Source: Lineus longissimus
Lineage: Eukaryota; Nemertea; Pilidiophora; Heteronemertea; Lineidae
Length of the DNA: 64,000 nucleotides
Direction: 5' to 3'
Assembly (NCBI RefSeq): GCF_910592395.1
Contig: NC_088317.1
Coordinates: forward strand, 14,262,001-14,326,000
Shown: in pieces, positions 31,621-64,000 of the stretch
How positions within the stretch are numbered: position 1 is the stretch's first letter
Layout: the number at the start of each line of letters is the position of its first letter
The notes under the pieces: model-generated
What the model saw: only the letters and a program-made list of their open reading frames with translations
Database searches by the model: none
Told to the model about the DNA's origin: nothing
Program-made: the position numbers and the translations under genes

Positions 31621-31691
31621 CCCTTTATGACGGATCTGAATGTGCGATTGTCTTCACAAGTCCTTAAGGTTGGATGCGCTGTTGTTTATTT

Positions 31692-32059
31692 ATTCACATT
31701 CATGAACATGAACATGAAACATACATGTATATTTACCAAAATACAACATGGCACAGTAGGGATAGTAAATAGGCTAATGTCATTAATTGACTGCCCTTAA
31801 AAGACAACAATAGCGTTGATATCACCCTTTTATTGTTATAATGTATCTTTATTCGTGTAATAATCGCATTCACATTATTCACATTCATGAACATGAACAT
31901 GAAACATACATGTATACATGTATTTACCAAAATACAACATGGCACAGTAGGGATAGTAAATAGGCTAATGTCATTAATTGACTGCCCTTAAAAGACAACA
32001 ATAGTGTTGATATCACCCTTTTATTGTTATAATGTATCTTTATTCGTGTAATAATCGAT
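31692..32059. repeat. Two tandem copies of an approximately 184-bp repeat
   Basis: 'cattcatgaacatgaacatg' recurs about 184 bases apart, each followed by 'atttaccaaaatacaacatg', 'gcacagtagggatagtaaat' and 'gacaacaatag'. It is related to the approximately 153-bp units at 32912-33370 and 55705-56055. Confidence 0.88.
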
Positions 32060-32295
32060 TACATTATGGTGTGGGTATAACAAAAGAACGAAAGGTAACA
32101 AAAAGATTCACAAATACCGTACATAACATAATTTGTATGTTTACAATAGTGTACATCAAGCCTAAAAAAATCCGGCGGAGGACGGCCACAGAAATCAGAG
32201 CCAGCTCCCAGTCACCATAAGATAGTGCTTTTGTGTGCACAGGAAGTCTAGAATGGCATTTATCATTGCTTTATCATCAGTGTCCATACTGTCCC

Positions 32296-32884
32296 TTAGT
32301 CCAAGAAGTCCCTGATCGCTGTGGCTCTCCTCAAAATTTCATCTCGTGGTTTGACAGGCTCTGGTTTAATACCTCTAGCCAGAAAATCCTGCCTGGGGAT
32401 GTTGTATGATTGTGCCATTAGACTGAGAGATTTGGAAACATCCGAGTTACTCCCGCCCTTAATCAATTTGTAAGATGATTTTACATAGATGTTTTCTGAG
32501 AGTGAAGCTCGCATTAGGAAATTATACAGCCTGATATGGAGCATAAAATCAATCGGATCGGAGTTGATTAAGGTGGGGACAAGAGTACAGTGTGTTCTGG
32601 GGTTAAGACCAATCAGCCTCCTAATTGCCTTCCTCCAAGCAGTGTAAACCTTCTCTATGGACTTCTCTGATAGATTCCACAGCGTGCACCCATAGAATGA
32701 CACACAAAATGTGGTGAATAGTTTAACCTTTGTATCGACCTTACAGAAGTGGAATTTAGAAAGTAACAAATTCACCCTTCTGTTAAAATCTGACACGGTG
32801 TTAATAATATTTGAGTCTCGTTTCTCCGGGCCTATAACAATACCCAAGTGAACCGCCGTGCTGTCGGCCTGAACACGGACCCCC
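32296..32884 (-). pseudogene. Truncated non-LTR retrotransposon, C-terminal part of the reverse transcriptase ORF
   Basis: About 196 residues in one open frame on the minus strand, with no ATG at the truncated end. It reads 'STAVHLGIVIG', 'SDFNRRVNLLLSKFHFCK', 'KVKLFTTFCVSFYGCTLWNL' and 'YTAWRKAIRRLIGLNPRTH', the region that follows the FADD motif in CR1/L2/Jockey-type LINEs ('HLG...' then the thumb). Endonuclease and catalytic RT motifs are absent. A pyrimidine-AG sequence directly precedes it, so splicing to host exons cannot be excluded, but a 5'-truncated LINE is simpler. Minisatellite units flank it on both sides. Confidence 0.8.
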
Positions 32885-32911
32885 TGAAAGAGAACAAAAA
32901 TATTCCGGTAG

Positions 32912-33370
32912 TATACATTCACGATGCTATACAAAATATGAACATTAACATGAAACATACATGTATATTTACAAAAAATACAACATGGCACAGTGGGGAC
33001 AGTAAATAGGCTACAGCCTTTAAGTGACTGCCCTTAAAATACAACAATAGCGTTGATATCACCCTTTATACATTCACTATGCTATACACAATATGAACAT
33101 GAACATGAAACATACATGTATATTTACAAAAATACAACATGGCAAGGTAGGGATAGTAAATAGCCTAAATCCTTTAAGTGACTGCCCTTAAAATACAACA
33201 ATAGCGTTGATATCACCCTTTATACATTCACTATGCCAGACAAAATATGAACATGAACATGAAACATACATGTATATTTACAAAAAATCAACATGGCACA
33301 GTGGGGAGAGTAAATAGGCTATGGCCTTTAAGTGACTGCCCTTAATAGACAACAATAGCGTTGATAAAAC
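32912..33370. repeat. Minisatellite, three copies of an approximately 153-bp unit
   Basis: 'atacattcac(t/g)atgc' starts units at about 32914, 33069 and 33223. Each contains 'gaacatgaaacatacatgta', 'acaacatggcacagtgggga' or variants, and 'caacaatagcgttgatatca'. The same unit occurs in block B at 55705-56055. Confidence 0.9.
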
Positions 33371-35682: not shown

Positions 35683-38600
35683 ATGCTTAGACGCTCTGCT
35701 TTCTACTTCTTCGTTTTTTTTGTCATTCATGCACCAATGCACCACACTTCATCCAGGCACGCGCCTGAAGCTAACCGTTTTAACCCCTTCTCAATCCAGT
35801 CCTACATCACCCTCCAACAAATATCGTTTTCGTTCATCTCTTCGAAACGCAACATCAAGGCACTATCCTTAAAACTAAATGGAAAATTGAGCACAAACAG
35901 GTGTAACACATCCCCTGACACCATGCCCTCGTACATTCTGTATATATTACTCCTAGCTTCGCTAGCTTTCTCCGTACATTGCATTCTACTCGCCATCACT
36001 TCTCCATCGGAACATGCTGGGACTAGCGTCACGACAATCCCAACCACACACTTCAACTTTTCAAATCTAATCCTCTTATCAGGAGACGTGGAATTAAATC
36101 CCGGGCCCAAACTTTTCTCTATCAACATCAACAGCCTACGCAACAAAATTGACAACCTCTACGCGGAACTTCCACCTGACATCGACATATTATGCATATC
36201 CGAAACCAGACTAGACAACTCCATCACAGACCAGGATATCCTAGTACCAAGCTTCCATGACGTATTCCGAAAGGATCTGACCATTGCAAGTGGTGGAGTC
36301 TGCCTCCAGCTTTCCGACACCCTCATCGGCGAACGCCTAGATCACCTCGAAGAACCAGAACTGGAACTGCTATGGGTCAAGGTGACCCACCAAACGGGCC
36401 ACCTGATCATCGGTGTGGGCTACAGAAATCCGGCACTCCCCGTCGCCTACTGGGACAAACTTTATGCTAACGTTTCAAACGTCGTCGGCTTGTTTGGTCA
36501 GCAAAAGGTTATGCTCGTTGGAGACTTCAACCAAAACCTACTGAAAGACAACCCAGGTCACCTATCACTCCTCATAGACTCCCTCAACATGTTCCAACTC
36601 GTCAATGCTCCGACCCACTTCACTTCTCACAACCAATCCCTCATTGATCCAATAATTGTAGGTCAGCCCGACTTCTTCTCCGATGTAAACGTCCTCCCTC
36701 AGGGCATCAGCGACCATTGTCCCGTGGTAGTCGACATACCCCAAACCAACCCCAAAGCAGCATTCAAGCGCCCGATCTGGCAGTTCAGCAAGGCAAACTG
36801 GAATGACCTCAAACAAGAAATGTCAAGCGTGGATTGGGACAACCTTCTACACACGGCCAACCTCAATGTAGCGGTAGAAGTCTTCACCACCACCCTACTT
36901 GAGACAAGTAAAAGATTCATCCCCTTCCAGCGGATCAAATTCTCTTCAAACGATAAGAACTGGATAACCGCCGAGATCAAAATAGAAATCAACAAAAGAA
37001 ACAAGCTCTTTGGAAAAGCAAAGAAATCCGGTTCTAACATCGATTATGATATTTTCAAAAAACAACGAAACCACGTTATCTCACTGATCAAGAAGGCAAA
37101 GGATTCCCACCTTTCGTCGATAACGGACAAATTGAAAAATGGAAGAAAGGATAAAGACTGGTGGAAACTCGCCAAAAGCATCTGCGGTCAAAGCAAAAAC
37201 AACACAACTCCTTCACTAAATGTCAATGGTTTATCCGTAGACGACCCTACAACCAAGGCCAACATCCTCAACGCTCACTTTGCCAAAATCTGCAACGTAG
37301 ATGAGACAAACATACCCGCCCAAGGAGAACTCCCAAACCTCACCAACAACGAGCTCAACGACATCATAATCACAGAGCAGGATATCGCCGATCAAATCGC
37401 CATCATGGACACTAACAAGGCCATCGGCCCAGACGGCATCAGCCCTCGCATAGTTCATTCATTGACGCTCCAATTGACCAAACCGCTCCACATCCTCTTC
37501 AACAGATCCCTGAATGAAAACATATTCCCAGAAACATGGAAAAAAGCAAACATTACCCCCATATTCAAGAAAGGTGACAGGCATGATAAATCCAACTACA
37601 GACCCATTTCCCTCCTCAGTGTCATAGGAAAACTTTTCGAAAAAATTGTCCACAGAAATGTCTACAACCATCTCCGTTTGCTCATCTCGAAGAACCAATC
37701 TGGATTCCTGGCTAACCACTCTGCAGTTACCCAACTCCTTGAAATAAACCATCAATTACTAATGGACCTCGACGAACAGAAGGAAGTTTTCTCACTATTC
37801 TGTGACATTTCCAAAGCTTTTGACAAGACTTCTCATAAAGGCATCGCATCGAAACTTTACCAGTTTGGCATCAGAGGAAACCTGCTATCATGGTTCAAGA
37901 GCTACCTCCAAGACAGGAAACAACGGGTTGTAATCAACGGAAAATCCTCAGAGTGGCTTCGAGTCAACGCTGGCGTCCCCCAAGGATCTATCCTAGGCCC
38001 ACTGATGTTCCTGGTCTACATAAACGACGTCACGGAGGAAACCAACGGCAGAACGAGACTGTTTGCCGACGACACTTCAAACGCATTCGCATCACGAAAC
38101 CTCTTAGCATGCACGCCCGAAATCCAGCAGGATATAAACAAACTTTACGCATGGGCAATGAAATGGGCCATCACCTACAACGCAACAAAAACGCTGTATC
38201 TGATTATGAGCAGGCGGAGACAACCCTCTGTTATCCACTGTCATCTCAACAACGTCGCAATTGATCAAGCCAAGTCACACAAGCACCTCGGATTAACTTT
38301 CAACGACAAAGGAACCTGGGAAGACCATATCCAGTCAATCGTTACGACTGCAAACCGCAGACTTGGCATACTACAAAACATCAAATACAAACGGATAAAC
38401 AAACTTTACTAACGCTCTACAAGACATTTGTCAGAAGCAAGCTCGAATACGCAGACGTAGTATGGGACGGACTCCCCCAGAACTTAGCAGCAAAACTGGA
38501 AAAAACTCAAATCAATGCAATGCGATGTATAACAGGATTAACAATCAGCTCTCACCACCGCGACCTTTACAGAGAATCTGGCCTTCTACCACTCGAAAAG

Positions 38601-39257
38601 CGCAGGAAATTCCATCGCCTCGTAATGTTCTACAAAATTTTAAACGGACTTGCACCAACCTACCTCAAAGACCTCATCCCAGAACTAACCGTCGATAGTC
38701 ACTACCATAACACACGTTTAGCTACAAACAACAATATAACACCTTTCCTTTGCCGCACAAATAGCCTCTACTCAAGCTTCTTCCCTTCTACAATCCGTGA
38801 CTGGAATGCTCTCGACCTTTCTGTACGTGCGAAACCAACTCTAAACTCTTACAAATACTCCCTAACCAAACTGCCAGAATTCTCTATCAAACCAATCCCC
38901 TCCTGGCTAGACATCGGCCCTCGCCCACTTAACATCATTCTCACACGTATGCGAAACAACTGCAGCGGACTAACATCTGACCTATACCTAAACCACGTTT
39001 CGGAAACCCCCACTTGCCTCATGTGCCCAATGCATGTTCCAGAAACCTCTTCACACTTTCTTCTCGACTGTCCTAAGTACGAAAACCAACGCAACTCCCT
39101 AATCGCCAATACCCTCCAAATAACACACATCCATAATGCAACTCTAAACTCAAACATCCTTCTCAACGGCCATCCATCTTTCTCCAACCTCGAAAATGCT
39201 CTCCTTATCAAATCAACCCTAAAATTCATTTCATCCACAAATCGTTTTCCAATCTAA
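35683..39257 (+). pseudogene. LINE ORF: N-terminal leader, 2A-like motif, APE endonuclease, reverse transcriptase, zinc knuckle; one frameshift
   Basis: The first frame (35683-38412) encodes 909 residues; it breaks at about 38403-38412 and coding continues in another frame to the stop at 39257. Domains: a hydrophobic leader if translation starts at Met81 (35923, A at -3; 'MPSYILYILLLASLAFSVHC'); a 2A-like 'GDVELNPGP' at residues 134-142; an APE-type endonuclease ('CISETRL' Glu174, 'GDFN' Asp281, 'SDHCP' Asp344/His345); a reverse transcriptase ('PIFKKGDRHDKSNYRPISLL', 'DISKAFDK' Asp708, 'AGVPQGSILGP', 'FADD' Asp796/Asp797). After the frameshift come 'LYKTFVRSKLEYAD' and a Cys-x2-Cys-x9-His-x4-Cys knuckle (CLMC...HFLLDC). 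All catalytic residues are present, so only the frameshift separates this copy from an intact gene; a sequencing error is possible. The family copies its RNA into nicked chromosomal DNA. Confidence 0.9.
36082..36108 (+). other. 2A-like ribosome-skipping motif in the LINE ORF
   Basis: The nine codons read GDVELNPGP, fitting the D-(V/I)-E-x-N-P-G-P consensus in full. In known 2A peptides the ribosome fails to join the final Gly and Pro, so the upstream leader would be released from the endonuclease-RT polyprotein. 2A-like motifs in the N-terminal part of APE-type LINE ORFs are known from sea urchin, lancelet and other invertebrates. Confidence 0.85.
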
Positions 39258-40201: not shown

Positions 40202-41146
40202 CTAAAAAAGACCCATTGTAGATGCAGCATTCTGCAGTTATTGTACGGTGGCAATTGGGTGCCCGAACCGATTTTTGCCACGAAATGAAAATGAAATTAA
40301 ATAGCACGGTCGAAAAATATTTTAAAACAAATATTCGCTGTAACGAATCACCAACTTTCTTCTGAAAAATTGTTCCACTTGGTCCTTCTATCAGAAAGGG
40401 TACACACATGTACAAACTAGGAACATAAAAAATTCGAAAATTGGAAAACTAAACATTAAGTTTAGTGTTTGACAGTCCCTTTCGACGTTTGTACAAAATG
40501 GCTGTAGGCACTATCATGAGGCTGTCAGTTTGCCCTCGCATGCGTCCTTAAGAATTGCCATACTGTCCAAACTGAATTTTCTCGTCGCTTGAACTTGGAA
40601 ATCTCTCAAGGTCTGAAATCCCAAAATATACACATGCATGAGGTACATACGAGGTGTAAGTTAATGCATTGTGTTAACTATGTCGTCAATGTGTACCGTC
40701 GGCTAATTTTCTAGAAACGTGTAACATTTTCAATACTTTCACTAAATTATATATTTTGCGTTATGGTATTTTATTGTAGGTACGTGTACCAGGCCTTCGA
40801 TGACCGGCTCTCATTTGAAAAAAGGTCTCTCAAAATACAGTCCCAATGCAAGCAACCGCGCCTCTGATTATTCCATGGAACTGAACCGAAACAAATAACA
40901 ATTTATAGATTTGTAGAAGTTATCAAGTGTAAAAAGTTATTCTATAGATGATGAGGATGATTGCCTCTGCCCTCGTTGGTTGGCCACAAATATGTATTTG
41001 TCATGTAGAAATAGTAGTGACACCTAGCGGCCAAAAGGACGGGTCATAGTTTACATGCCCTCGTAACTTGTAACTGTCCTAATGATAATAAATTAAAAAC
41101 AATGACTGAAAGATGTTTTGGCAGTGTCTTATAAAAAAAAAATTAC

Positions 41147-41248
41147 CTTGGACAATGCAGCATTGACATTCCTGGGTCGTTGGTAGGTATTTATCTGATG
41201 GCCATTTTACCGTTTTCGAAGTTTTGGGATTTGAATGCCAACAACACC
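41147..41248 (-). CDS. Cysteine-rich exon of an unidentified gene (block A copy)
   Basis: The exon is 102 bases, phase 1 at both ends, between TATTTTTCAG and CAAG|GTAATT. It encodes 33 residues from 'CCWHSNPKTSKTVKWPSDKY' to 'LPTTQECQCCIVQ', with five cysteines. Block B carries the same exon at 57209-57310, open and with the same splice sites. A symmetrical phase 1-1 exon with this cysteine density is typical of extracellular modules. I could not connect it to other exons. It might be an alternative module of the receptor-like gene upstream on the same strand, or belong to a separate gene. Confidence 0.4.
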
Positions 41249-41395
41249 CTGAAAAATATTCATTACATTTGATGCAGTAAATACACCTGGAAGCTTGAAG
41301 TGTGTTTGTCGCCGTAAGTTCATGATTGAGTCGTAAAGCCTTTATCTTTAGACAAGGACCAGAACAGATGGATCGAGGCCACGAACCCATGTCGG

Positions 41396-41813
41396 TGTGG
41401 GAGAATGGGTTAATGTCTTTAATAGTTGTGCTGCCCATTCCAGATGACAGCACAAGCTGGTCTTGCCTTTTTCAATACACTAGTTTTAATGCTCTTTAAT
41501 ACCTTTAATCATTACATAATATATATACTTATACCTATTTAAGTGAATGTTTGGTGTGGCCCAGTGCCATTCCTTGAGTTTATCACTCTACTATAACATT
41601 ATTCCTTGCTTATCCTTAATTCTATGTGCTTGCAGGTATGTACATATTCGTGTTCTGTAAATTGTAAATATATTCCGTCATTCCGTCATTAAAAGCCATT
41701 CCTTGAGTTTATCACTCTACTATAACATTATTCCTTGCTTATCCTTAATTCTATGTGCTTGCAGGTGCCTGTATGCCTGCTAATTTGGCCACTGGCCGGA
41801 AATATCGGCCACA
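41396..41813. repeat. Left LTR, 418 bp
   Basis: It begins TGTGGGAGAATGGG and ends GGCCACA, with TG...CA termini. It contains 'taatatatatact' (TATA-like) and an internal direct repeat of about 75 bp starting 'gccattccttgagtttatca'. It is the same length as the right LTR and differs from it at about half a dozen positions. Confidence 0.93.
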
Positions 41814-41846
41814 TTTGTGTGATTTTGTATTGCAATGGTTGAGCGT

Positions 41847-44085
41847 ATATACAGTGAGTACTTAGTTAACTGGTGCTGGTCTAAAATTTTCTAAGTCCAT
41901 AATAGGTCATTATAATATGCATTTTAGGCCCAGATGGGTTGTGCAGGGCCTACATTCCTTTTGAGAAGCATGAATGGGCTAATAATGACAACTTGAGCCT
42001 ACTGCACATGTCGGCATTGATACCTATTGACTATGATCACTTTCATCAAGTACTCAGAAAGTTTTAATAGCTTGAAATCCGACATGCAGAAAGTCCATCC
42101 AAGACTACGATCACTGGCCAGTGCTTTTCATGGAAAATGAATGTCGTTACAAGCTTTTTACAGGGTAAACCCTAAAAAAAGTGGCATTTGAATCAGGGAG
42201 GGGATGTGAGATTTTTGCCCAAAAGTTTAACTTGGGGGGTAAAGTAACTAACACTTACATAACCGATGCCATTAACAACATTTACTTATTCACTACTTTG
42301 CACTACAACTGTTTTACAATTCCAAGTTGTCGTCAAAATTTAAGTTATCATCATCATTATCGGAGTCTGACAATTCGTTTTCACCAAGCAACAAATCATC
42401 TGCAACATCATCACGATAATGACCATCTGGTTGAGGTGTTAAGCCAGCCACTTGAAATGACTTAGCCGCAGACTCAGGAGCTACATCATTCCATGCTCTA
42501 CTTATAATGCCGAGTACATCCTGTAATGTAATTTTGCGGCAATTTCCGTCAGCCTCAGTTGCATCACATTTCCATAACTTCCAATACTTTCGCATTATAG
42601 CTTTAAATCCCCTCATAATAGTGAGATCTAACGGCTGAGCCAGCGATGTACACCTAGCAGGAATATTGTCTAACAGTATGCCTGCTTCAACCATTGGGTA
42701 ACAGAAATCCTCTGCTTGATGCGGTCGGAATCTGTCCAAAAGCAGAAGGATGTCATTAAAGTCAAAATCGCCAATGTAAGGGAAAAGAACATTGTCCAAC
42801 CAATGTTGCAGTGTCTCTCCATTCTCCCAACCAGACCTCGAGGATGTGACCCGTACGTTATCTGGAATGTTGTTCAAATCTCTAATCTGACGCACGAAGC
42901 CCGGCTGCCTGAAAACAACATGAGCAGGCGTTTTTTCTCCGTTGGAGCCAACTGTCAATCCAACGGTGCACCCGAGTTTGGCATTTCCTCGCGATGTTTT
43001 CACATTTACATCTACTGTACCTCTGGTCTCAGCTGTATACATCGGAGGGAAGTCCAACTGAGCAAACGTTTCGTTAAAGTTCAAGAGCGTGTGGACATGG
43101 TTGTCAGCTACAGTTTGCCTAACGCCAGTCTGAAATTCTCTCACTCTCTGTGGTGCATCAGCCGGTACAGTGGTGGAATCTTTCGTTTTACGGCGGAAAA
43201 CAATCTTTTTCCGTTTCACAAAATTTGTAACCCAACCCACTGATGCAGAAAACTGGGACCTTTCGGGGCGACGTGCTGCAATGTCCTCAAGTTCATTGTG
43301 TGGGAGTTGGCCCCACCAGTTCTGAAATTCAATCGTTGCATCATTAACAATGTCCGACCGAGAAACGGGCAGGGCAATATTCCTCCGTTCTTGAAAATGC
43401 TGGTGCACGATATTCTCAACTTCCGGCCAACAACCATCATGGTCGGTTCTGACTCGCCGGCGTTCTGCATTTTCCTCCACTTGATCCGTCATTTCATCGA
43501 TGTTCTGTATCCATCTCCTGAGCGTTGTTGGGGATAGTCGATAGCGCCTAGCATACTCATTGACATTTAGAATGCGGCCATGTTCAATTGCTGTTTGGCA
43601 ATCCAAGGCATGTCGCAGCCTGGCTTCAACAGTGTAACTGTTACATCGTCGAGGGAGACCAACTGCTGCAGCACCATTCTGCTGATCGGCATCATCATCA
43701 TCATCATCGTCATCATTGCCAGCATCCATCATAGACTGACACATGACAAAGAGCGAAAGCATCTGCAGTAACAACAACGTTGTGTTCCTCATGATTTGAA
43801 CTTTCTACAGGAATGACCAATATGATTGTTAGGGTAAAGGGCCTAGGAAATTACACAACTGCAATTGCCTTTCATACCAACCATTGATTGATAAAATTGG
43901 CCACAGAAGACCAGATCAAGAAATGAACATGTAATCAAAACTCTGTCATTTTCTTCATTGAAATGTGATTAGTATAGGCCCTACATGGTCGTAAATCGAC
44001 AATATCCCATTCTGGGCCTCTATTAGTGACTTAGAAAATTTTAGACCAAGCACCAGTTAACTAAGTAGTCACTGTATGTATATAC
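41847..44085. repeat. Inverted repeats flanking pogo-like gene 1
   Basis: The left arm (41847-41938: 'acagtgagtacttagttaac', 'tggtctaaaattttctaagt') and the right arm (44005-44085) are reverse complements with few differences. The left arm starts 33 bases inside the left LTR. Confidence 0.85.
42314..43792 (-). CDS. Pogo/Tigger-like DDE transposase-related protein 1
   Basis: Intronless frame of 492 residues. It begins with a hydrophobic leader (MRNTTLLLLQMLSLFVMCQS) and an Asp-run; a start at the later Met-Met pair (before DAGNDDD) is an alternative. A helix-turn-helix of CENP-B/psq type follows ('VNEYARRYRLSPTTLRRWIQ'), then a second DNA-binding-like segment ('SASVGWVTNFVKRKKIVFRR') and a DDE_1-type core: 'LLNFNETFAQ', 'LLLLDRFRPHQ' and 'TSLAQPLDLTIMRGFKAIMR'. 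In this family the first motif is normally NxDE; here the catalytic Asp is Asn (NFNET). The other two acidic residues are kept. The C terminus is acidic (SDSDNDDD). The protein may bind DNA without cutting it. It is a diverged paralog of the gene at 44279-45874. Confidence 0.88.
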   Translation of the reverse strand: MRNTTLLLLQMLSLFVMCQSMMDAGNDDDDDDDDADQQNGAAAVGLPRRCNSYTVEARLRHALDCQTAIEHGRILNVNEYARRYRLSPTTLRRWIQNIDEMTDQVEENAERRRVRTDHDGCWPEVENIVHQHFQERRNIALPVSRSDIVNDATIEFQNWWGQLPHNELEDIAARRPERSQFSASVGWVTNFVKRKKIVFRRKTKDSTTVPADAPQRVREFQTGVRQTVADNHVHTLLNFNETFAQLDFPPMYTAETRGTVDVNVKTSRGNAKLGCTVGLTVGSNGEKTPAHVVFRQPGFVRQIRDLNNIPDNVRVTSSRSGWENGETLQHWLDNVLFPYIGDFDFNDILLLLDRFRPHQAEDFCYPMVEAGILLDNIPARCTSLAQPLDLTIMRGFKAIMRKYWKLWKCDATEADGNCRKITLQDVLGIISRAWNDVAPESAAKSFQVAGLTPQPDGHYRDDVADDLLLGENELSDSDNDDDNLNFDDNLEL

Positions 44086-46150
44086 TGTATACGTTGCATT
44101 TGCTGGCCACCACAAGAAGACCAGAATAGGCCTATATTACCCCTTATACATGTTTTAGGCCTTCATAGATCAACTGCATTGTTCAGGGAATTAGGCCTAG
44201 GCCTGTGGGAAAAACTGACATAATAACACATTGATTTGAACACACGGGGCTTTATTGGAGAGCATTACCCTATCAATCTCACTCATCTAAATCTTCAAGA
44301 AAATGAAGATCATATTTGGGATTATCAGCATCAACTTCAAAGTGTTCCTCATCATTTTGATGAGGCGGATTTTCTTGATTGCCTTCAAGCCCACTCACTC
44401 ACCATGCTGTATTGACTGCTGCTTCTGGGGCAATTCTCTCCCAGGCAGTTGATACCATCTGAATTACAGCATCCCTGGTGATTTGTGGGGAACGACCATG
44501 AATGTCATTGTTCTCAATTTTCCACTCCTTCCATAGGCGTCTCATTGTACATTTGAAGCTGCGGATGATGGTCAGATCCAAAGGTTGTACCAGTGAGGTA
44601 CATCTCCCTGGTATCAGCCCTATGAACCCGGGAGCGTCCTCTACATGGTCACGCACTTGTTGATGCCGGTGCGCTGGGAACATGTCCCAAATTAAGAGGA
44701 ATGGAAAGTTGTCTCCCACAAACGGTATGAGGCAATCATTTACCCAAGCAATCAGTGTCTGCCAACTTGCCCAGCCTGTTTGCGAGCCCGTTACCCGCAC
44801 ACCATTGGGGGCAGTTGCCCGAAGTCGAGCGATTTCTGGACCATCATCGCGCAGACCCTTGAAAATTATACTTGCAGGGAGTTTTCTCCCACACGCAGTC
44901 ATCGCTAAAGTCACCGTACACCCTAATTTTGCATTTCCTCGCGAAGTTCGTATGTCCACTTGTTTCAAACCTTGCAAAGAGTACGTGTACGTGGGTGCGA
45001 TGTCCCAAAGAACAAAAGTTTCATCCATGTTGACGATAATCTGTATTCCATTATCATTGATAATGTTTCGGACCTCATTTTGAAATGCCGTTACCAACTC
45101 TGCGGCATTGAGCGGTATTGATGTAGAGTCTTTGCAAGTCTTCCTGTAGCTAATACCATGACGAGTCAAGAAACCTTGTAACCATCCACTTGATGCTGAA
45201 AATGGTATGAGATGAGGGCGCAGTTCCATCCAATGTTTTCTCTGTTCCTCAGGAAGATCGTGCCACCAAATGTTGAAGAACCGTTCACCCTGGAACATCA
45301 GGTCACTCCCAGCTATTGGAAGACCATGTTCTCGACGCTGTAGGAACCAATCATTTAAGAGTCTCTCTGCCTCTGGCCATCTACCTGAAATGAGAGAGGA
45401 AAATCGTAAGGGCCACATCACCTGCGGGCCTACCAGCCCCCACCTACATTTCACCTCATTCACCTGATTCATTTCCCCGATGCACCAAGGTCACCAGGAT
45501 AACTAACCTGTGCCATCAATTCCATGTTGCCTTAGCCTTTGCATCTGTCGCAATATGTATGTGGATTCTCGGTGTCTCTCGCGCAATTCATCCTCCTGTA
45601 TCCATCGCGCAATGGTCCTTCGGGGAATGCCATGTAGCTGTCCATATTTTGAAGGAGTAATCCCATTTGACCTTGCAATGTTCAGCTCATGGTTCTCATC
45701 AAGTCGCCTGATACGAATATCTAATGAGTAGGCGTTCAGTCTGCGAGGAATTACGACGTTTTCATTATCACCAACAGCATCATTTTCATTACGGTCCTCC
45801 TCAGCTCCATTCCCATTGTCCATGCACCAAAGACGGTGCAAAATCAGGAGAAAAAGAATTGTCCTTACAAGCATGCTGACAACATCAACTGCCTTGGCCT
45901 CAACATCTTGCTAATCAATATTGCATAAGATTGTTTTCAAAGGCCTAACTTTCATTGACAGTTAATGTCAGTGTGCCAGCAGACTGCTGACAGGGCAATC
46001 CGTAGCTTCCAAAATTATTATACAACATTTCAGTGAATGGTGACAAATGGAACTCTCCTCGTGGCCTTAAACATGTATAAGGAGTAATATAGGCCTATTC
46101 TGGTCTTCTTGTGGTGGCCAGCAAATGCAACGTATACAGTATATATATAT
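44065..46150. repeat. Inverted repeats flanking pogo-like gene 2
   Basis: Segments 44078-44165 and 46058-46150 are reverse complements: 'gttgcatttgctggccacca', 'caagaagaccagaataggcc' and 'acatgttttaggcc' on the left. The left arm abuts the right arm of the inverted repeat around gene 1, so the two units share a junction near 44080. Confidence 0.85.
44279..45874 (-). pseudogene. Pogo/Tigger-like DDE transposase-related gene 2, with an in-frame stop near the 3' end
   Basis: Two exons, 45508-45874 and 44399-45384, join in phase (ACAG|GTTAGT to CTCATTTCAG|GT) and give 450 residues aligning along their length with gene 1. A TGA at 44401-44399 is followed in the same frame by 40 more sense codons ending in an acidic tail at 44279, matching the acidic tail of gene 1; the TGA therefore looks like a late mutation. 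The leader is again hydrophobic (MLVRTILFLLILHRLWC) before an acidic segment. The HTH reads 'PSKYGQLHGIPRRTIARWIQ'. The DDE motifs are complete: 'IVNMDETFVL', 'LLIWDMFPAH' and 'TSLVQPLDLTIIRSFK'. An active-site-competent protein is possible if the last 40 residues are dispensable. A strong GTGAGT donor overlaps the stop, so splicing may bypass it. Confidence 0.85.
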
Positions 46151-46158
46151 AATGTGAG

Positions 46159-46242
46159 TCGAATTTTGTTTATGACTTCTTCGCCCCAAAGATGAAGAAA
46201 CTTGGCTACCAAGGCGTATACAAGAAGCGGACACATGAGAAG
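46159..46242 (+). pseudogene. Orphan exon of a CCR4/Angel/nocturnin-type nuclease
   Basis: Twenty-eight codons read 'YDFFAPKMKKLGYQGVYKKR' with 'THEK', followed by GTAAAT. The pattern 'F..P.l..LGY.G.Y..RT' is characteristic of the EEP nuclease domain of CCR4-like deadenylases and Angel proteins, just after the Glu-containing motif. No other part of such a gene is nearby, and the piece lies inside the LTR element. It looks like a captured host exon. The acceptor (AATGTGAG) is poor. Confidence 0.42.
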
Positions 46243-46528
46243 GTAAATGGCCAAACAGTAATTTGTTTGAGGCCCACGAGCATTTCTGCGGTTAATGCTA
46301 TGTAAAAGTGTGTTCTCTTTTCCATTAATATATATCACTTATCATAGCCGCCATCATCATTAATCACCTCGTCACTCACTCGTCATTATTGCCATATTAT
46401 CATATTGTTGCACTACCTGCAATCTTATTCACTGACCTGACTCACGCCAACCTTTATTAAACTAAATTTCGGAACCTTTATTAAACTAAATTTCGGGAGA
46501 AATTTCTATAAGTAGGGGAGGGGGTGTA

Positions 46529-46946
46529 TGTAGGAGAATGGGTTAATGTCTTTAATAGTTGTGCTGCCCATTCCAGATGGCAGCACAAGCTGGTCTTGCC
46601 TTTTTCAATACACTAGTTTTAATGCTCTTTAATACCTTTAATCATTACATAATATATATACTTATACCTATTTAAGTGAATGCTTGGTGTGGCCCAGAGC
46701 CATTCCTTGAGTTTATCACGCTACTATAACATTATTCCTTGCTTATCTTTAATTCTATGTGCTTGCAGGTATGTACATATTCGTGTTCTGTAAATTGTAA
46801 ATATATTCCGTCATTCCGTCATTAAAAGCCATTCCTTGAGTTTATCACTCTACTATAACATTATTCCTTGCTTATCCTTAATTCTATGTGCTTGCAGGTG
46901 CCTGTATGCCTGCTAATTTGGCCACTGGCCGGAAATATCGGCCACA
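46529..46946. repeat. Right LTR, 418 bp
   Basis: Begins TGTAGGAGAATGGG and ends GGCCACA, followed by TCGG. It has the same internal direct repeat as the left LTR. The few differences between LTRs suggest a fairly recent insertion. Confidence 0.93.
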
Positions 46947-47604
46947 TCGGTATCAAGTCGATTGTTGTTACTCACTCGTTGTGGGGCCCGGGATCGTATC
47001 GTAGCAGTAAGTTATGCCAGTTTCGTAAGTTACCGCCTGTGCCGCGCCCATACGCGCATAACAAAGATAACAGTATTTGTTTGGTTGCTTGTGATCATCA
47101 GCAGGCTACGGGAACCTAATGAATGGACTCTCCAACTAACTTTTACAGTAAAAGCTCAGTTTATATGTCTCTGGTTATTGCATTATAGCTGATTATTGTC
47201 TTTTGCCATGGTTCGAAGGATTCAATGCATTGTCAATGGAACCTGACATAAATACATGAATAAATGACTATTGATGACGTTGGACTGTACATGTTTTAGA
47301 CCATCTTTTCAATGGCAAAAAATATCGTAATGGGCTCAATCATCCATATGGGAGAGAGTCTTTCCACATCGGCGTATCCGGATGGACGTGGCACAGCTAG
47401 AGACGCCTGATCAGGCTAAAACAAAAGACATGGCGAATTGTGAAATCACCATGGGATTGAAATCAACAAGGACATGGTCGAGCAGCTGTGCGCTTTTTAT
47501 GCGAACAACCTTTTTCACGGATTATGTTTCGTTGTCGAGTTGTCGCCCGAATTGGCGAGACCACTCGTAAAGCAGGAATCTTTACCAAACTGGTGAAGGG
47601 CGAA

Positions 47605-49412
47605 TTAGCTCAATCGGGTTACCACCAACCCCTGTCTTACTGTCTGGGGTGCATATTTATGTATCGCTGTCAGTGATTCGGTTAAACGAACAAATTAAAT
47701 ACTCGAAAAATCAGATGTTAAAGTTTTTGATAATTATTGCTGAAGAAGAGTACAGTGACGTCAACAAATGCACGTTTCTTCAGCGAATCTTATATCAAAA
47801 GTGGTACAAACCTTTTCTCCTGAAGAAACAAACAGTCACGGTGACAGTTAAAACGCTAAACACCACAATGGTAGTAAGTGCCACTGGTAACAAGATAGAT
47901 GCTGCAGTGTCTGCCTCTTCGTCCATGATGCCATTGCTGCTACTGTAATTCACGGTTGCCAGGGACAATGTTGTCGTCGTTGACGGGTTTTGTTTATAAC
48001 CTAAACATGTGAAACCGGATAATGCGTTGAACTTTAGTGCCGAAGGGAGATTTTGGAATTGAAGTGTTTGATCTCCATAATTGAATGAAGAGAATAAGTT
48101 CAGCTGCAGTCCTTCCAGAAAGTCAATGTCCACAGGTTTTTAAAAATATCACAGAGATAGAATAAGCTAATGGAATTGGTTTTCGGCAGGGAATGGTATA
48201 TCTAATTGGCCATGTATCTGTTGGATTAGGGTTTAGCTAATCCTGCCTCTTTATTATGTAACAGGCAATTTAAAAATGTCCGAAAAGTCACTTTTTTATT
48301 TTATCACATTTTCGTTCTTTTTCACAATGTATGGGTGAACTATGATGCAACAAAGGTTTTTTTTGCTTTCATTACTAGAACATTCCTGCAAAATTCTTTC
48401 ATTTTCAAGATTGTAGGTCGCTGCGGGTGATTGTTTTTTTCAGACAGCTGGTGACCTTTGAGAACACCCCCTCATAGTCAGCAATGCAGTCAGTCAGAGA
48501 GACTAGGCATGATGCCAGTCTCTCTTAAAGCACAGTCAATAAAAAATGTAGTTTCAGTATTAGGTCTTTCATTGCAGCAATGCGAAAATGTAAGCAATTT
48601 TGGTTAGGTCCGTCATAACATGGAGTCACTCAACCACTCTATTGATTACAGCGGCCGCCTCAGCGCCACCACGCGGGGCCTAAAGGTATTGACTGACACT
48701 GATTGACAGATGCCAAGGTGATAGTGAAGGTCACATTGCGCTGCACTAACATTGAATTGTTGACATGCTGTTTTGAATTTGACAATTCTCGCATTAATTG
48801 CGGCCGATCTCTTAGTTTTTTTGCAGAGTTGTTGATGCAATACCATAAGGTTACTCTTGAAAATGAAATCGGTTAATCTATCGCTGATAAAATACTTGTC
48901 GAAGAGTGGTTCACCTTTTGGGACACCCGATATATGAACTGAAACATCATCGAGTCCTACGTTAAAACCGCCGCTGACTATACATTGAATACACGCGGCT
49001 CAAGATAAAAATTAACAGCTAAGGTAGCAAACATCAATATAATAATTGGTGAGAAATAGCTAATGTTAATGCCCAAATCTTCCAGACAATATTCCTTTTA
49101 GCAGCGTCCCTCAAAATCACACTTGTTGCGTTATCAAGATTATTTGAGTTCCGAATTGTTTAAAAATTCTTTGGGGCAAACGTTTGGATATTGTGAAGGA
49201 AACCTCTAAATACCAAAGCAATCCAATAAAAATCCAACAAGTAAAAAAATGCAATTAAAAACAAAACGGTATCTGCCTCATTTCAACCTACCAAATTTAT
49301 CCAGTTGACAGCCCATTACTTTGCAAACAGCTTCACTGAGACTGCACGGTATCTTGCACGATCTACAGCTCTCTATGGCTGCTTCGTAATACTGACCTTC
49401 CTTGCACGGCAT
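47605..49412 (-). CDS. BCMA/TACI-like TNF-receptor-type single-pass membrane protein, copy A
   Basis: Exons 49292-49412 (ATG at 49412-49410), 47812-48000 and 47605-47666 join in phase 1 throughout and give about 123 residues. The first exon is one cysteine module, 'MPCKEGQYYEAAIESCRSCK' then 'IPC...VCKVMGCQ', closely following the C-x-(E/N)-x-Y-(Y/F)...C-x2-C-x3-C...C...C layout of BCMA, TACI and related TNF receptors. As in BCMA there is no signal peptide before the module (a type III topology). The second exon encodes a Thr/Ser-rich stalk, an acidic patch (IMDEEAD), a hydrophobic transmembrane helix (ILLPVALTTIVVFSVLTVTV) and a basic stop-transfer (CFFRRK). The last exon is a 19-residue tail ending at TAA; it is the least certain part (pyrimidine-poor acceptor). 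A pyrimidine-AG just before the ATG suggests a spliced 5' UTR. A paralog with identical exon lengths lies at 58113-60512. Confidence 0.7.
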
Positions 49413-50400
49413 TGTACTTTATTAAAATAGCTGAAAATGACAAAACCGAGGTTAAGCACATTTGTCTACTTCTTCTTCTTCACGTTAACCTCAATCACAC
49501 GGTCAGTCTTGTTCGTCGCATGTACTCAGTCGTCCTCCGCAATCACGCCCATACAGTTGATCCTGTATGTTAGCACCATTTGGCCAGATTTATTGTCTGC
49601 TGTTGGTTTTCTTTGTGCAGAGGGCAGTCTGGTGGTCGTTGTCATCGGTCAAGTATTGCAAGAGCATTGGTTGGTGTCTCCTACTCTGTACTTGTGGAAT
49701 AGGTGGTACCGCATCCTATTATGCCCGCTTCTTATGTTGCGTTTACATTGTCAAAGATTTTTCAGTTCAATTTAAGTGAACCGTGCTCGAACCGGACCGT
49801 CTGAAAATGGTAAGCACATTTGCAAAAAGGCTTAAATGATAGCTAGGCCGTACATCTATTACCTTTTTTGCCGTTACTGGCTTAGGCCGACCAACCCCCC
49901 CCCCCCCCCCCCCCCCATGAAACATATTTCACGAGGTTCGGTATCATCAAGCTTTGCCCCTTTGACCCACAAACGCGTATCAAGTTTGTGAATTGTCCAT
50001 AATGCGACTCCTTTACAACCTCATAAATGGTTTTGAAGGATTCTTTCACACTTAAATCCTATGTCAGGCCACCAAAATTGTCAGTCGATAGTAAAATGGA
50101 CAGACTTATGGCCAATAAAATAGTTGGGGGAGGGGGACAGGGGACTCAGTGGTGGCTATCTTCGATTTCCCCTGATTTAATTCCCCAACCACCTCATAAT
50201 TAGTGTTGCAGAACCGATAGCTGGACACTAACATATATTTATCATAATGTCAAAAATAAACCGCGATATAGCCAAAAAATATGATGAGGCGGCCATCTCG
50301 TTTTTGACGTCTCATTTTGACCGTTTCCGGGGCCTAAATGTTCCTAAACGTTTGATATGTTGTTCACAAGACCCAATACTACCACGACTACACAGAAGCA
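49413..50400. other. Duplicated non-coding or unassigned sequence upstream of receptor copy A
   Basis: Open frames here (plus 49437-49775; minus around 49800-50060) also exist in block B at 60537-60875 and 60867-61133, but their differences are not concentrated at silent sites. A long C-tract (about 49887-49915) is reduced to six C in block B. Confidence 0.4.
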
Positions 50401-50529
50401 CCATAAAACGTTTTGTATAAATGTTTTCAGGGTTATGTGCCCTTTTGACCCTAAAATATCTTCTTTCTGCCCGCCCATGCCAAATTGCAACATTCTGCTG
50501 CGATGCTCATTTGGGAACTATACTGGTAT

Positions 50530-50773
50530 GTAAAAGTAAAGTTTGTTTATTACAGTGTCAACCCTAATGAAAGGGCCAGCCAGCTTTTTGGCTTATGAGA
50601 CACTCTTTACTTCCAAACTCTTATCTCTAATGCCAGGCGCCTGGCGAGAAGGCAGTTTGTTTAACTAGCTGGCGGCTAACCAACCGGCCGCATCGGAAAG
50701 AGGTTTCCAGCGGGCCTCGAACCTTCGACCTTACCATTCACGAGGCGGACACCTTAACCACTAGGCCATCGAG
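50530..50773 (-). repeat. tRNA-derived SINE
   Basis: On the minus strand the head reads 'gatggcctagtggttaaggt' (A-box-like) and 'ggttcgaggcc' (B box), as in a tRNA gene, then an unrelated body and a tail 'aataaacaaactttactttt'. A clover-leaf cannot be closed beyond the B box, so this is a SINE and not a working tRNA gene. It is absent from block B. A head fragment of the same type may lie near 6720-6760. Confidence 0.8.
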
Positions 50774-51450
50774 ATCGGTTGATGTGTATCGAAAAGCTTT
50801 TTTTCAATTCAAATTGCCGAGAAGTGATGATGTTCAACAATTGTGTAAGGTAAACTAGGTACACGTTGTGAAAGAGTTGGCAAATTAAATAAGCTGGGAT
50901 ATCTTGTCTTCGTTTCTACCATTATGTTTTCTTTAATCGTAATATGAAAAGTTCCGCTGTAGAACCATGACTATTCGTGACTATTACACCCCTGGCTGCG
51001 AAAGGCCTACGATTGTGTGCGGCTGTTTATACGCTACCCATCGTGGCGGAGGTACAAATCGGGTATTGAAGGGCTTAGAATCTTATTGGTGAGTGGATCC
51101 AGTAATATTGTTCTGTGTTTTTATTAGCACTATTTTTGTGGCGAGTGGAAAGTGGCACTGTGATTTGCCTTGTTCGTGCGGAGCAATAGATATTCCCAAT
51201 CGAGTGCATTGATCTCCCATTGTATAAGGTGTAGCCGATGATGTCTTACTTATAGGTTGTGTGTGGGGGGGGGGGGGGGGGGGGAGGGATCAACAGAAGA
51301 ACGTCGTTGACCCGTCACATATTTCTGCTATTGCGACAGATAAACAACTTTTACTGCGACGTCTGTGCTGACAACATAATGCAATCTATTTTTAATATAA
51401 AGGTATAGACACTCATTTAAAAAATGTCCTAGTGACCTGCTTTCTTTGTC

Positions 51451-51621
51451 CCGGTGTAAAAGAAGAAAATGTCCCCCTGGAAAAAGTGTCCGGCCCTATT
51501 GTATTCCGCTATCTGGTTCTATAGAGGCCATGACCGCCAATAGCTCAGAGATTAAAGCGCATAATATAATCCATTGTTTCCCGGACATTCTATCCCAGGA
51601 CATTTTAAACTTCTACACCGG
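51451..51621. repeat. MITE family 2, block A copy (171 bp)
   Basis: The left end 'ccggtgtaaaagaagaaaat' and the right end 'ttttaaacttctacaccgg' are inverted repeats, extending inward through 'gtccccctggaaaaagtgtc' and 'ggacattctatcccaggaca'. Relatives are at 5085, 9265, 20898 and 63227. Confidence 0.85.
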
Positions 51622-52672
51622 GTGTGACTATGCACAAATAAGGTGTCAAGGAACCGTCCGATCTTTTCACCACTTTCTGCAAACTTTGAACAGATTTTTG
51701 CCGGAAATTTCAATGACTAACAGATGAAGACGTCGCTTCGTATGGACATGTTCATTGAGAAAAAAATGGTTAAGAAGACACAAGTCGATGTATCTGAGTC
51801 TTTTACCTCCCTCTTAACGGTTATTCTAACTTTTTCCTAATTCATCCGAAAAGAGTTCCACACTGTCCGACCTATCCCTATTATTTTCTTTACTGTTTTT
51901 GTCATTTTTCTCATTCTATGTAATTAATCGAGCTTAAGATACATTTTTTTACGCTTTGTGTAATACTGTACATACAGCTTTAAAGAAATGTCACGGTAAA
52001 GGGACAAGGAAGTACGGTAAGGCTACTTCAGACGACGTATATCATTATTTTTCAAAGCGAGGTTTCACTGAAATGTAGTGCGCTATAAAAGTACTTTTTT
52101 ATCATCATTTTTTAAATTATCATTTTTAGAAACTAGGTCAACATGTTCTAACGAGAGGTCCTCTTTCTTGTTGAGAATTTAAGAGGTCGCTCTTTCGATA
52201 AGCTTATAGAGCACATTGCTGTGCATCACTGATTTTCTTTGGACTGAGTGGCCAATGTTTATTTTACTAATGGTTCCATTGCTGCGAAATGTATTGAAAT
52301 AGTTGCGAAATAGTAGCCCCTGTTACCCTGTTATATAGACATATTGCGTTTTAAATTTGCGGTAACCACAATGTGTCTTTATTAGCGTGTCTGTGATGTT
52401 ATGTACACTTCTGTCCTGAATAATCACAGGTCCATTATGGTTTATCAAGAGTTGGCGACGTTTACTTTCATATCACGTCTGTTTATCTGTTCACCAGTAA
52501 ACTTTTCTTTTCTTAAAGTGCTTGAATATGTTTTAAGTTTCGACCTATTTTTACCACAAGACCTGTGTTTTGTATCATATATCGCAGTTTGTTCTTTCGT
52601 AAAAGATTCCCTACAGCTTCTTACCCAAGACGAGTCCCAAAAATCATCATGGGTGTTGGTAATCAGCTTAAG

Positions 52673-55323: not shown

Positions 55324-55704
55324 TTTTCACATCTGCGTTTTACAATCTACCATTTTAGATGTTATCACTTTCGTTTCAGAAAATTCCCTCTAACACTTAA
55401 TTAGGTAACGTCTTTTTTTTAGCAGACAATGTCTTTTTCTAACCGCTTTTAATGGACTTTTCAATATCTAGACCTCAAAATCAATATCAACAAAGGCCAA
55501 CCAATTGTTATTCACTCCATGCAACACCACTCCCTGGAGAGGTGCCGCAGCCTAAATGTACGTACCTTGCATTATATTAGTTCAGGAGTGCTTGGATAGG
55601 ACTGTATTTATCAGTAGAGGTCATGAAGTCATTATCTAATTGTCTAATTATGTATATGAAATGTACCAACTTCTCGTTTGGTTAACAACATCTTAACTTT
55701 GCTT

Positions 55705-56055
55705 TATACATTCACTATGCTAAACAAAATATGAACATGAACATCAGACATAAATTTATATTCACAAAATACAACATGGCACAGTAGGGATAGTAAATAG
55801 GCTAAAGCCTTTAAACAAATGCCCTTAAAAGACAACAATAGCGTTAATATCACCCTTTATACATTCACTATGCTAAACAAAATATGAACATGAACATCAG
55901 ACATACATTTATATTCACAAAATACAACATGGCACAGTAGGGATAGTAAATAGGCTAAAGCCTTTAAATAAATGCCCTTAAAAGACAACAATAGCGTTAA
56001 TATCACCCGTTATACATTCACCATGCTAAACAAAATATGAACATGAACATGAAAC
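55705..56055. repeat. Minisatellite, just over two copies of the approximately 153-bp unit (block B)
   Basis: 'atacattcac(t/c)atgctaaac' recurs at about 55707, 55859 and 56011 (152-bp steps). The sequence corresponds to the array at 32912-33370. Confidence 0.9.
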
Positions 56056-56327
56056 AAGAAATCAGAAATAAGTAGAAACTTACAGATAAATTCAAACTGT
56101 GAATGGAAATTCGAGTCCACGAGTAAACTTACCGTGTATACAAAACCGTTAAAAACAAATAATGTTCATACAAATAAGTTACATAATATGGTTCTGAATA
56201 AACACATTGCCGGTAGTCCCGCAACTGACATAGATCCAAAAAGATCGGACATAACATTTATGAATAGACTACAGTATCAATTTCCTCGTCGCTTGCACTT
56301 GGGCTCATAAGCCAAAAGCTGTCTATG

Positions 56328-56555: not shown

Positions 56556-57208
56556 AATAAACAAACTTTACTTTACAAAACGACTGTAGGCAATATCATT
56601 AGGCTATCAGTTTGTACGGAGTCTATACGGTCCATACTGAAGTTCCTCGTCGCTTGAACTTGGGCTCTCAAGGTCTGAAATCCCAAAATATATGAGGTAC
56701 ATACGAGGTGTAAGTTAATGCATTATGTTATGTACTGTCGTCTACGTGTACCGTCGGCTAATTTTCTAGAAACGTGTAACATTTTCAACACTTTCACTAA
56801 ATTTTATATCTAGCGTTATGGTATTTTATTGTAGGAACGTGTACCAGGCCTTCGATGACCGGCTCTCATTTGAAAAAAGGTCTCTCAAAATACAGTCCTA
56901 ATGCAAGCAACCGCACCTCTGATCAATCCATGGAACTGGACCGAAACAAATAACAATTTATAGATTTGTAGAAGTTATCAAGTGTAAAAAGTTATTCTAT
57001 TTGTGATGAGGATGATTGCCTCTGCCCTCGTTGGTTGGCCACAAAAATGTATTTGTCATGTAGAAATAGTAGTGACACCTAGCGGCCAAAAGGACGGGTC
57101 ATAGTTTACATGCCCTCGTAACTTGTAACTGTCCTCTATTGCTAATGATAATAAATTTAAAAGAATGACTGAAAGAGGTTCTGGCAGTGTCTTATAAAAA
57201 AAAATTAC

Positions 57209-57310
57209 CTTGGACAATGCAGCATTGACATTCCTGGGTTGTTGGTAGGTATTTATCTGATGGCCATTTTACCGTTTTCGAAGTTTTGGGATTTGAATGC
57301 CAACAACACC
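57209..57310 (-). CDS. Cysteine-rich exon of an unidentified gene (block B copy)
   Basis: Counterpart of 41147-41248 with the same 102-base length, phases and splice sites, and the same predicted residues ('WPSDKYLPTTQECQCCIVQ'). Conservation between blocks is high, but neighbouring intron sequence is also similar, so this is not by itself proof of selection. Confidence 0.4.
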
Positions 57311-58112
57311 CTGAAAAATATTCATTACATTTGATACAGTAAATACACCTGTAAGCTTGAAGTGTTTTCGTTGCCGTAAGTTCATGATTGAATCGTAAAG
57401 CCTTTATCTTTAGACAAGGACCAGAACAGATGGATCGAAGCCACGAACCCATGTCGGTATCAAGTCGATTGTTTTTACTCACTCGTTGTGAGGCCCGGGA
57501 TCGAATCGTAGCAGTAAGTTATGCCAGTTTCGTAAGTTGCCGCCTGTGCCACGCCCATACGCGCATAACAAAGATAACAGTATTTGTTTGGTTGCTTGTG
57601 ATCATCAGCAGGCTACAGAAAACTAATGAATGGACTCTCCAACTAACTTTTACAGTAAAAGCTCAGTTTATGTGTCTCGGGTTTCTGCATTATAGCTGAT
57701 TATTGTCTTTTTGCCATGGTTCGATGGATCCAATGCATTGTCAATGGAATCTGACATAAATACATGAATAAATGACTATTAATGACGTTGGACTGTACAT
57801 GTTTTAGATCATCTTTTCAATGGCAAAAAATATCGTAATGGGCTCAATCATCCATGTGGGAGAGAGTCTTTCCACATCGGCGTATCCGGATGGACGTGGC
57901 ACAGCTAGAGACGCCTAATCAGGCTAAAACAAAAGACATGGCGAATTGGGAAATCACCATGGGATTGAAATCAACAAGGACATGGTCGAGCAGCTGTGCG
58001 CTTTTTATGCGAACAACCTTTTTCACGGATTATGTTTCGTTGTCGAGTTGTCGCCCGAATTGGCGAGACGACTCGTAAAGCAGGAATCTTTACCAAACTG
58101 GTGAAGGGCGAA

Positions 58113-60512: not shown

Positions 60513-61330
60513 TGAACTTTATCAAAAGAGCTGAAAATGACAAAACCGAGATTAAGCACATTTGTCTACTTCTTCTTCATCACGTTATCCTCAATCACAC
60601 AGTCAATCTTGTTCGTCGCATGTACTCAGTCATCCTCCGCAATCACGCCCGTACAGTTGATCCTATATGTTAGCACCATTTGGCCAGATTTATTGTCTGC
60701 TTTTAGTTTTCTTTGTGCAGAGGGCAGTCCAGTGGTCGTTGTCATCGGTCTCGTATTGCAAGAGCATTGGTTGGTGTCTCCTACTCTGTACTTGTGGAAT
60801 AGGTGGTACCGCATCCTGCTATGCCCGCTTCTTAAGCTGCGTTTACATTGTCAAAGATTTTTCAGTTCAATTTAAGTGAACCGTGCTCGGACCGGACCGT
60901 CTGAAAAGGGTAAGCATCTTTGCAAAAAGGCTTAAATGATAGTTAAGCCGTACATCTATTACCTTTTTTGCCGTTACTGGCTTAGGCCGACCGACCCCCC
61001 ATGAAACATATTTCACGAGGTTCGGTATCATCAAGCTTTGCCCCTTTGACCCACAAACGCGTATCAAGTTTGTGAATTGTCCATAATGCGACTCCTTTAC
61101 AACCTCATAAATGGTTTTGAAGGATTCCTTCACACTTAAATCCTATGTCAGGCCACCAAAATTGTCAGTCGATAGTAATATGGACAGACTTATGGCCAAT
61201 AAAATAGTTGGGGGAGGGGGACAGGGGACTCAGTGGTGGCTATCTTCGATTTCCCCTGATTTAATTCCCCAAACATCTCATAATTAGTGTTGTAGAACCA
61301 CTAGCTGGACACCAACATATTTATCATAAT

Positions 61331-63226: not shown

Positions 63227-63392
63227 GTAAAAGAAGAAAATGTCCCCCTGGAAAAAGTGTCCGGCCCTATTGTATTCCGCTATCTGGTTCTATAGAGGCC
63301 ATGACCGCCAATAGCTCAGAGATTAAAGCGCATAATATAATCCATTGTTTCCCGGACATTCTATCCCAGGACATTTTAAACTTCTACACCGG
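63227..63392. repeat. MITE family 2, block B copy
   Basis: Same element and position as 51451-51621, with the first bases of the left terminal repeat lost ('ctttctgtaaaagaag' in place of 'ccggtgtaaaagaag'). A G-tract lies upstream near 63057-63070. Confidence 0.85.
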
Positions 63393-64000
63393 GTGTGACT
63401 ATGCACAAATAAGGTGTCAAGGAACCGTCCGATCTTTTCACCACTTTCTGCAAACTTTGAACAGATTTTGCCGGAAATTTCCAGGACTAACAGATGAAGA
63501 CGTCGCTTCGTATGGACATGTTCATTGAGAAAAAAAAGGTTAAGAAGACACAAGTTGATGTATCTGAGACTTTTACCTCCCTCTTAACGGTTATTCTAAC
63601 TTTTTCCTAATTCATCCGAAAAAAGTCCCACACTCAGTCCAACCTATCCCTGTTTTTTTATACTGTTTTTGTCATTTTTCTCATTCAATCTTATCAATCA
63701 AGCCAAAGGTACATTTTTTACGCTTTGTGTAATATATACAGCTTGTCACGGTATAGGTTCAAGGAAGTTCATTATATTTAGAACAGTCAACATGTTCAAA
63801 GGAGATGTCCTTTATTCTTGTTGAGAATTCAAGCGGTTGCTCTAGATGAGTTTATAGAGTAGATGTTTACAATTTAAGTTTCACATTGCAGTGCAGCATT
63901 GATATTCTTTTGACCGAGTTGCCAATGGTTATATTGCTTATCGTTCTGTATTGTTGCGAAAGGTTTTTCTGATTAGCGGCCTCTAATATCGACATAATAC

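Follow-up and report, generated by a model that had tools for sequence, protein, structure and literature searches.

Here we describe a composite insertion at positions 41396-46946 of a 64,000-nucleotide stretch of the nemertean Lineus longissimus (assembly GCF_910592395.1, contig NC_088317.1, forward-strand positions 14,262,001 to 14,326,000; this whole stretch is further referred to as the window). The insertion is very probably a nested one, namely a short long terminal repeat (LTR) retroelement without visible gag-pol, which holds two different pogo-type transposons designated TE1 and TE2. A preliminary description of the same stretch considered the combination of LTR ends with DDE transposase genes as a possible new architecture; this claim is removed, since nesting explains the arrangement.

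The outer limits of the element are set by the following features:
41392-41395, no strand assigned: left target-site duplication TCGG, placed on the basis of the empty site at 57454-57457
41396-41813, plus strand: 5′ LTR, 418 bp, TG...CA, with a 72-bp segment present twice (41566-41637 and 41695-41766)
46529-46946, plus strand: 3′ LTR, 418 bp, identical to the 5′ LTR at 412 of 418 positions
46947-46950, no strand assigned: right target-site duplication TCGG, from comparing the flanks with the insertion-free copy of a duplicated block
57454-57457, no strand assigned: TCGG target left empty in that copy, from self-comparison and flank matches

Both LTRs start with TG and end with CA, and the 6 mismatches between them correspond to 98.6% identity (Kimura two-parameter distance 0.0145). 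The insertion resides in a duplicated block, the copies of which (40560-51972 and 56625-63740) share 91.6-93.6% identity in five matched pieces of the window self-comparison, and it is present only in the first copy, the second being free of it. The 120-bp flanks on the left and on the right correspond to 57338-57457 (95.0%) and 57454-57573 (95.8%), respectively, and share exactly 4 bp, TCGG. Since the flank matches overlap by precisely this tetranucleotide, the 5.55-kb unit is absent at the paralogous site and is framed by a 4-bp duplication at the occupied one, and chance is rejected. Thus the paired 418-bp repeats, the TCGG duplication and the empty site, all reported in the preliminary description, were borne out. 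The block copies themselves could be paralogues or haplotypes set in tandem. The second one has additional stretches of ~0.6-0.7 kb near 59013-59676 and 61330-62053, and close to its left side lies a tandem array (55702-56056) of a ~150-bp repeat, which also occurs in tandem copies at 31690-33366, the units being mostly 80-98% alike. Within each LTR the two 72-bp segments are 129 bp apart (41566-41766; 46699-46899) and end with a splice-acceptor-like TTGCAG/GT.

Apart from the two transposons, the interior of the LTR element is represented by:
41814-41851, plus strand: first interior piece, with no canonical tRNA primer-binding site beside the LTR and the first TGG 22 bp in
44075-44084, plus strand: spacer TATGTATATA between TE1 and TE2, 10 bp, including one flanking TA of each
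46140-46528, plus strand: second interior piece, opening with a 12-bp TA run
46514-46524, plus strand: polypurine tract AGGGGAGGGGG, G-rich, 4 bp before the 3′ LTR

These pieces sum up to 38 + 10 + 389 = 437 bp (433 bp allowing for the two duplicated TAs), so that by arithmetic the element minus both transposons would measure ~1.27 kb with an interior of ~0.43 kb. On the plus strand of the 64 kb, 14 stretches consist of 11 or more consecutive purines of which 6 or more are G, which gives a chance below 1% for any given 20-bp stretch, this criterion having been set after the tract had been seen. Position of the tract before the 3′ LTR implies that the LTR element is directed along the plus strand, opposite to the transposase genes. 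Products of gag, as well as protease, reverse transcriptase and integrase, were searched for with Pfam (E up to 1) over 41396-42330, 43780-44420 and 45860-46946, where none of nine stop-to-stop frames of at least 45 amino acids (aa) gave a match, shorter frames lying outside the scan; neither of two antisense open reading frames (ORFs) over the transposases was matched by Pfam at E up to 0.01. The reported invisibility of these genes is therefore upheld. TG...CA direct repeats, a 4-bp duplication (within the 4-6 bp range) with its empty site and the polypurine tract are thus those features of an LTR retroelement that were found, the one lacking being a recognisable primer-binding site at the 5′ LTR.

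Two transposons account for the rest of the insertion:
41852-44074, minus strand: TE1, a pogo-type transposon of 2223 bp flanked by TA at either end, outer bases CAGTG
42314-43792, minus strand: TE1 transposase, 492 aa, HTH_Tnp_Tc5 and DDE_1 (E=1.3e-19), spacing of 35 between the second and third catalytic Asp (D2-D3)
44085-46139, minus strand: TE2, a pogo-type transposon of 2055 bp flanked by TA at either end, outer bases CTGTATACG
44399-45874, minus strand: TE2 transposase, 450 aa predicted, DDE_1 (E=6.7e-15) and HTH_Tnp_Tc5, DDD present, D2-D3 spacing 35
45874-45508 and 45384-44402, minus strand: predicted exons of the TE2 transposase, separated by a predicted intron (45385-45507, 123 bp, GT...AG)

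Inverted repeats of TE1 are ~54 bp long and agree at 51 of 54 aligned positions, with 1 gap; those of TE2 are 77 bp long (75/77 identical), and the boundaries of TE2 are ambiguous in 2-bp steps because of the neighbouring TA repeats. Both units thus combine terminal inverted repeats and TA duplication with a transposase having DDE_1 and HTH_Tnp_Tc5 above the Pfam cut-offs; the spacing, this pair of domains and duplications of TA (or TAA/TAAA) are given as pogo features in PMC7386202. In the preliminary description two DDE genes of the same orientation were placed between inverted repeats joined near 44080, and one of its two readings was that a non-autonomous LTR element had taken up a DNA transposon, which was then doubled inside it. 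The common orientation (minus strand, with DDE_1 in each gene) and the junction stand, and the nesting is supported; the duplication is not. Terminal repeats of TE1 and TE2 gave no match with each other in the window self-comparison, the transposases share 35.7% identity over 460 aligned positions (39% if the TE1 transposase is compared with the second ORF of TE2 alone), and an intron is predicted in the TE2 gene only, with none in TE1. Because of dissimilar inverted repeats, individual flanking TAs, the protein identity of 35.7% and the intron predicted for TE2 only, a single transposon duplicated in place was rejected, and judged from their sequences TE1 and TE2 are two different adjacent pogo-type transposons. 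Alternating TA runs of at least 8 bp occur 7 times in the window, and the longest of them (12 bp) directly adjoins TE2, whose TA duplication may have lengthened it.

The two transposases differ in their presumed state. In TE1 as found here, N takes the place of the first catalytic D (NFNETF versus NMDETF in TE2), the assignment being made from the TE1/TE2 alignment and the D-E-T sequence, which we take to be the pogo motif with the first catalytic Asp; since this residue is replaced, the TE1 transposase is probably inactive. The reading frame of TE2 meets TGA at 44399-44401, beyond the catalytic residues, and an open acidic stretch following it is similar in kind to the TE1 tail; as predicted from the frame, the TE2 transposase is shortened in this copy. 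A PDB search with the TE1 transposase gave one unrelated match (E=0.086), and the AlphaFold2 model of this protein, with the second ORF of TE2 as the second row, had a mean predicted local distance difference score (pLDDT) of 42.1. Scans of viral contigs with the TE1 and TE2 transposases returned 3 and 2 stretches fitting a pattern, none of which was confirmed. At the N-terminus of both proteins, a hydrophobic stretch precedes MD and an acidic region (43733-43792 and 45824-45874, minus strand), which is odd for nuclear proteins. A leader peptide common to both was rejected, as 52% of 5000 shuffles score at least as high as the alignment of the two stretches; hydrophobicity of at least 2.0 (the TE1 level) after the first Met is found in 5% of 238 window ORFs, the value for TE2 being 1.67.

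With respect to family, TE1 and TE2 may be described as DD35D pogo transposons that mostly resemble Passer. Passer elements are reported to have TA duplications, lengths of 1.6-4.0 kb, transposases of 400-500 aa and inverted repeats mostly shorter than 30 bp (PMC9976928). The D2-D3 spacing of 35, HTH_Tnp_Tc5, TA duplication, length of ~2.0-2.2 kb and one transposase of 450-492 aa agree with this group (PMC7386202, PMC9976928), whereas the inverted repeats (54 bp in TE1, 77 bp in TE2) are longer than in most of its members (PMC9976928), an intron is predicted in TE2 and BrkDBD is absent among the Pfam matches listed for both. Because the spacing of 35 is also described for Fot/Fot-like elements and falls within the ranges of Tigger, pogoR and Lemi (PMC7386202), it is not unique to Passer, and an assignment to this family would be tentative.

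The transposase genes were initially considered the only genes of the element. This is true as far as gag-pol is concerned, while a further coding stretch was overlooked in the second interior piece:
46153-46302, plus strand: open frame of 50 codons, ~40 of them resembling EEP nucleases by alignment scores against shuffles

The frame reads CESNFVYDFFAPKMKKLGYQGVYKKRTHEKVNGQTVICLRP... and its local alignment scores are 58 with ANGEL2 (6rvz), 51 with CNOT6L (3ngn), 49 with CNOT6 (7ax1) and 47 with yeast Ccr4 (4b8c), compared to shuffle means of 20-21; these scores were reached by 0, 0, 2 and 0 of 5000 shuffles, respectively. Out of the 1114 peptides obtained by six-frame translation of the window, the stretch ranks first for three of the four EEP segments, and all four alignments begin in the same register. 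On this ground its resemblance to ANGEL/CCR4-type nucleases appears likely but not proven, and the stretch is probably a gene fragment captured from the host, both capture and its route being deduced. GT follows KKRTHEK in this stretch, yet the alignment with ANGEL2 runs on beyond it. An origin from the non-LTR element located at 35683-38412 was tried and rejected, since a tblastn search of the window with this fragment found nothing in the endonuclease part; the only match (14 residues, E=6.2) lies at 38014-38055, in the reverse-transcriptase part.

Taken together, these data allow proposing the following course of events. One of the two block copies received a short LTR element at its TCGG site, as the LTRs, target duplication and empty site show. 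It would have been copied via RNA, with reverse transcriptase and integrase supplied in trans by an autonomous relative, as is thought for terminal-repeat retrotransposons in miniature (TRIMs), and its ~0.43-kb interior would have carried the polypurine tract and the ANGEL/CCR4-like stretch of probable host origin. Two DD35D pogo transposons would have entered TA dinucleotides, the target used by pogo elements, in the interior TATATA stretch by cut-and-paste, 10 bp from each other, in either order and either before or after the LTR insertion at this site, and their DDE genes look like passengers of the LTR element. What the sequence demonstrates for TE1 and TE2 is their ends and flanking TAs.

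The closest parallel to the LTR component is provided by gene-carrying TRIMs of soybean and Medicago, described as 30 elements in seven subfamilies of 1,172-1,449 bp (PMC4717578), which similarly have two LTRs, lack retroviral genes and hold a gene fragment inside (PMC4717578). The inferred ~1.27 kb falls within their size range, while the plant elements have 5-bp duplications, compared to 4 bp here, and mostly two or more copies (PMC4717578). Retroviral proteins are absent as in TRIMs (no Pfam match in the nine frames), but the 418-bp repeats and ~1.27 kb without the transposons exceed the limits of 100-250 bp for repeats and <1000 bp in total (PMC6934838), although longer elements, up to 1,449 bp (PMC4717578) and 1,263 bp (PMC10886601), are also called TRIMs. 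Among non-autonomous LTR elements of animals, bivalve biv-TRIM is far smaller, with 202-218-bp repeats and a 77-80-bp interior (PMC6934838), and Helenus, 311-1263 bp in length, shares the 4-bp duplications (PMC10886601). Helenus LTRs hold a tRNA-like sequence (PMC10886601), and none was detected in the window by ARAGORN and Rfam, nor any other RNA family sequence at gathering cut-offs. The element is thus TRIM-like and appears to work as a gene-carrying TRIM; membership is not claimed because its size is above the usual limit and the search for a primer-binding site recognised none. In the titles and beginnings of abstracts of the papers listed, a literature text search found no animal case of gene capture by a short LTR element, which is weak evidence of absence, and a text search for the peptide motif with its spelling variants gave no match.

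Several observations weigh against the proposed nesting of two pogo transposons in a fragment-bearing LTR element. The 38 bp after the 5′ LTR, all of them preceding TE1, show no recognisable primer-binding site, the search having covered canonical tRNA sites and exact self-priming. The small distance (10 bp) between TE1 and TE2, together with their common orientation, is unusual for independent insertions, although the TA target lessens the surprise. As regards the EEP-like stretch, the match is short and the likeness was recognised before testing; an unrelated window peptide scores 54 with the CNOT6 segment, leaving the stretch second with its 49; CNOT6L and CNOT6 are close paralogues, which reduces the references to about three independent ones; and neither Pfam nor PDB gave an EEP match when searched with the fragment.

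Other explanations concern the timing of events, the nature of the repeats and the role of the DDE proteins. In terms of timing, both transposons might have entered a master copy first, with the whole 5.55-kb unit retrotransposed here afterwards, in which case a few further copies with both DDE genes may exist. The 98.6% identity of the LTRs argues for a fairly young LTR insertion at a moment when TE1 is already without its first catalytic Asp, and a length of 5.55 kb is usual for ordinary LTR elements; nothing in the window dates the insertions of TE1 and TE2 relative to that of the LTR element, however, and we consider this order of events improbable. Still less probable is that the direct repeats are not of the retroviral type and that another class of elements with long direct repeats was inserted, which would equally be compatible with two nested transposons. 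The unrecognised canonical primer-binding site and exact self-complementarity limited to 7 nucleotides are in its favour, but TG...CA ends, the 4-bp duplication, near-identical repeats and the polypurine tract together make up the pattern of LTR elements, and the described animal biv-TRIM likewise has no clear primer-binding site (PMC6934838). These two possibilities do not contradict nesting, and the likelihoods expressed here are not shares of a whole. The compound family suggested in the preliminary description, in which DDE proteins cooperate with LTR-like ends and serve as their integrase, finds no support in the window and is hardly credible: the LTR unit did move without a visible integrase and both DDE genes are inside it in one orientation, but each of them lies between its own inverted repeats and flanking TAs and hence has a substrate of its own, the target duplication made by the LTR unit is TCGG and not the TA (or TAA/TAAA) of pogo (PMC7386202), TE1 is devoid of the first catalytic Asp, and the genes are antisense to the inferred LTR direction. 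On these grounds a DDE protein as the integrase of the LTR ends was rejected.

The rest of the window contains other mobile and repetitive sequences. The non-LTR retrotransposon occupies 35683-39257 on the plus strand and includes two ORFs, of 909 and 245 aa in this order. The first matches reverse transcriptase (RVT_1, E=1.5e-28) and, below threshold, an endonuclease (E=0.0093), and at about its residue 139 there is SGDVELNPGP, which we take to be a 2A-type recoding motif. A 375-aa transposase ORF with DDE_Tnp_4 (E=4.2e-35), presumably Harbinger-like, is found at 13951-15078 on the minus strand, and a 168-aa ORF at 11988-12494 may be its partner. Tandem arrays at 1863-2390 and 2983-3521 have periods of ~52 and ~180 bp, with self-matches of 93-98% identity.

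Returning to the nested LTR element, the small gene-like stretch between the LTRs may merit further attention. In plants, short LTR elements are described as capturing genes. It may tentatively be suggested, as a rather unlikely extension of the data, that an animal family of TRIM-like LTR elements spreads a captured ANGEL/CCR4-type fragment and offers a landing pad for TA-targeting transposons. If true, this would be an animal counterpart of the gene-carrying plant TRIMs.

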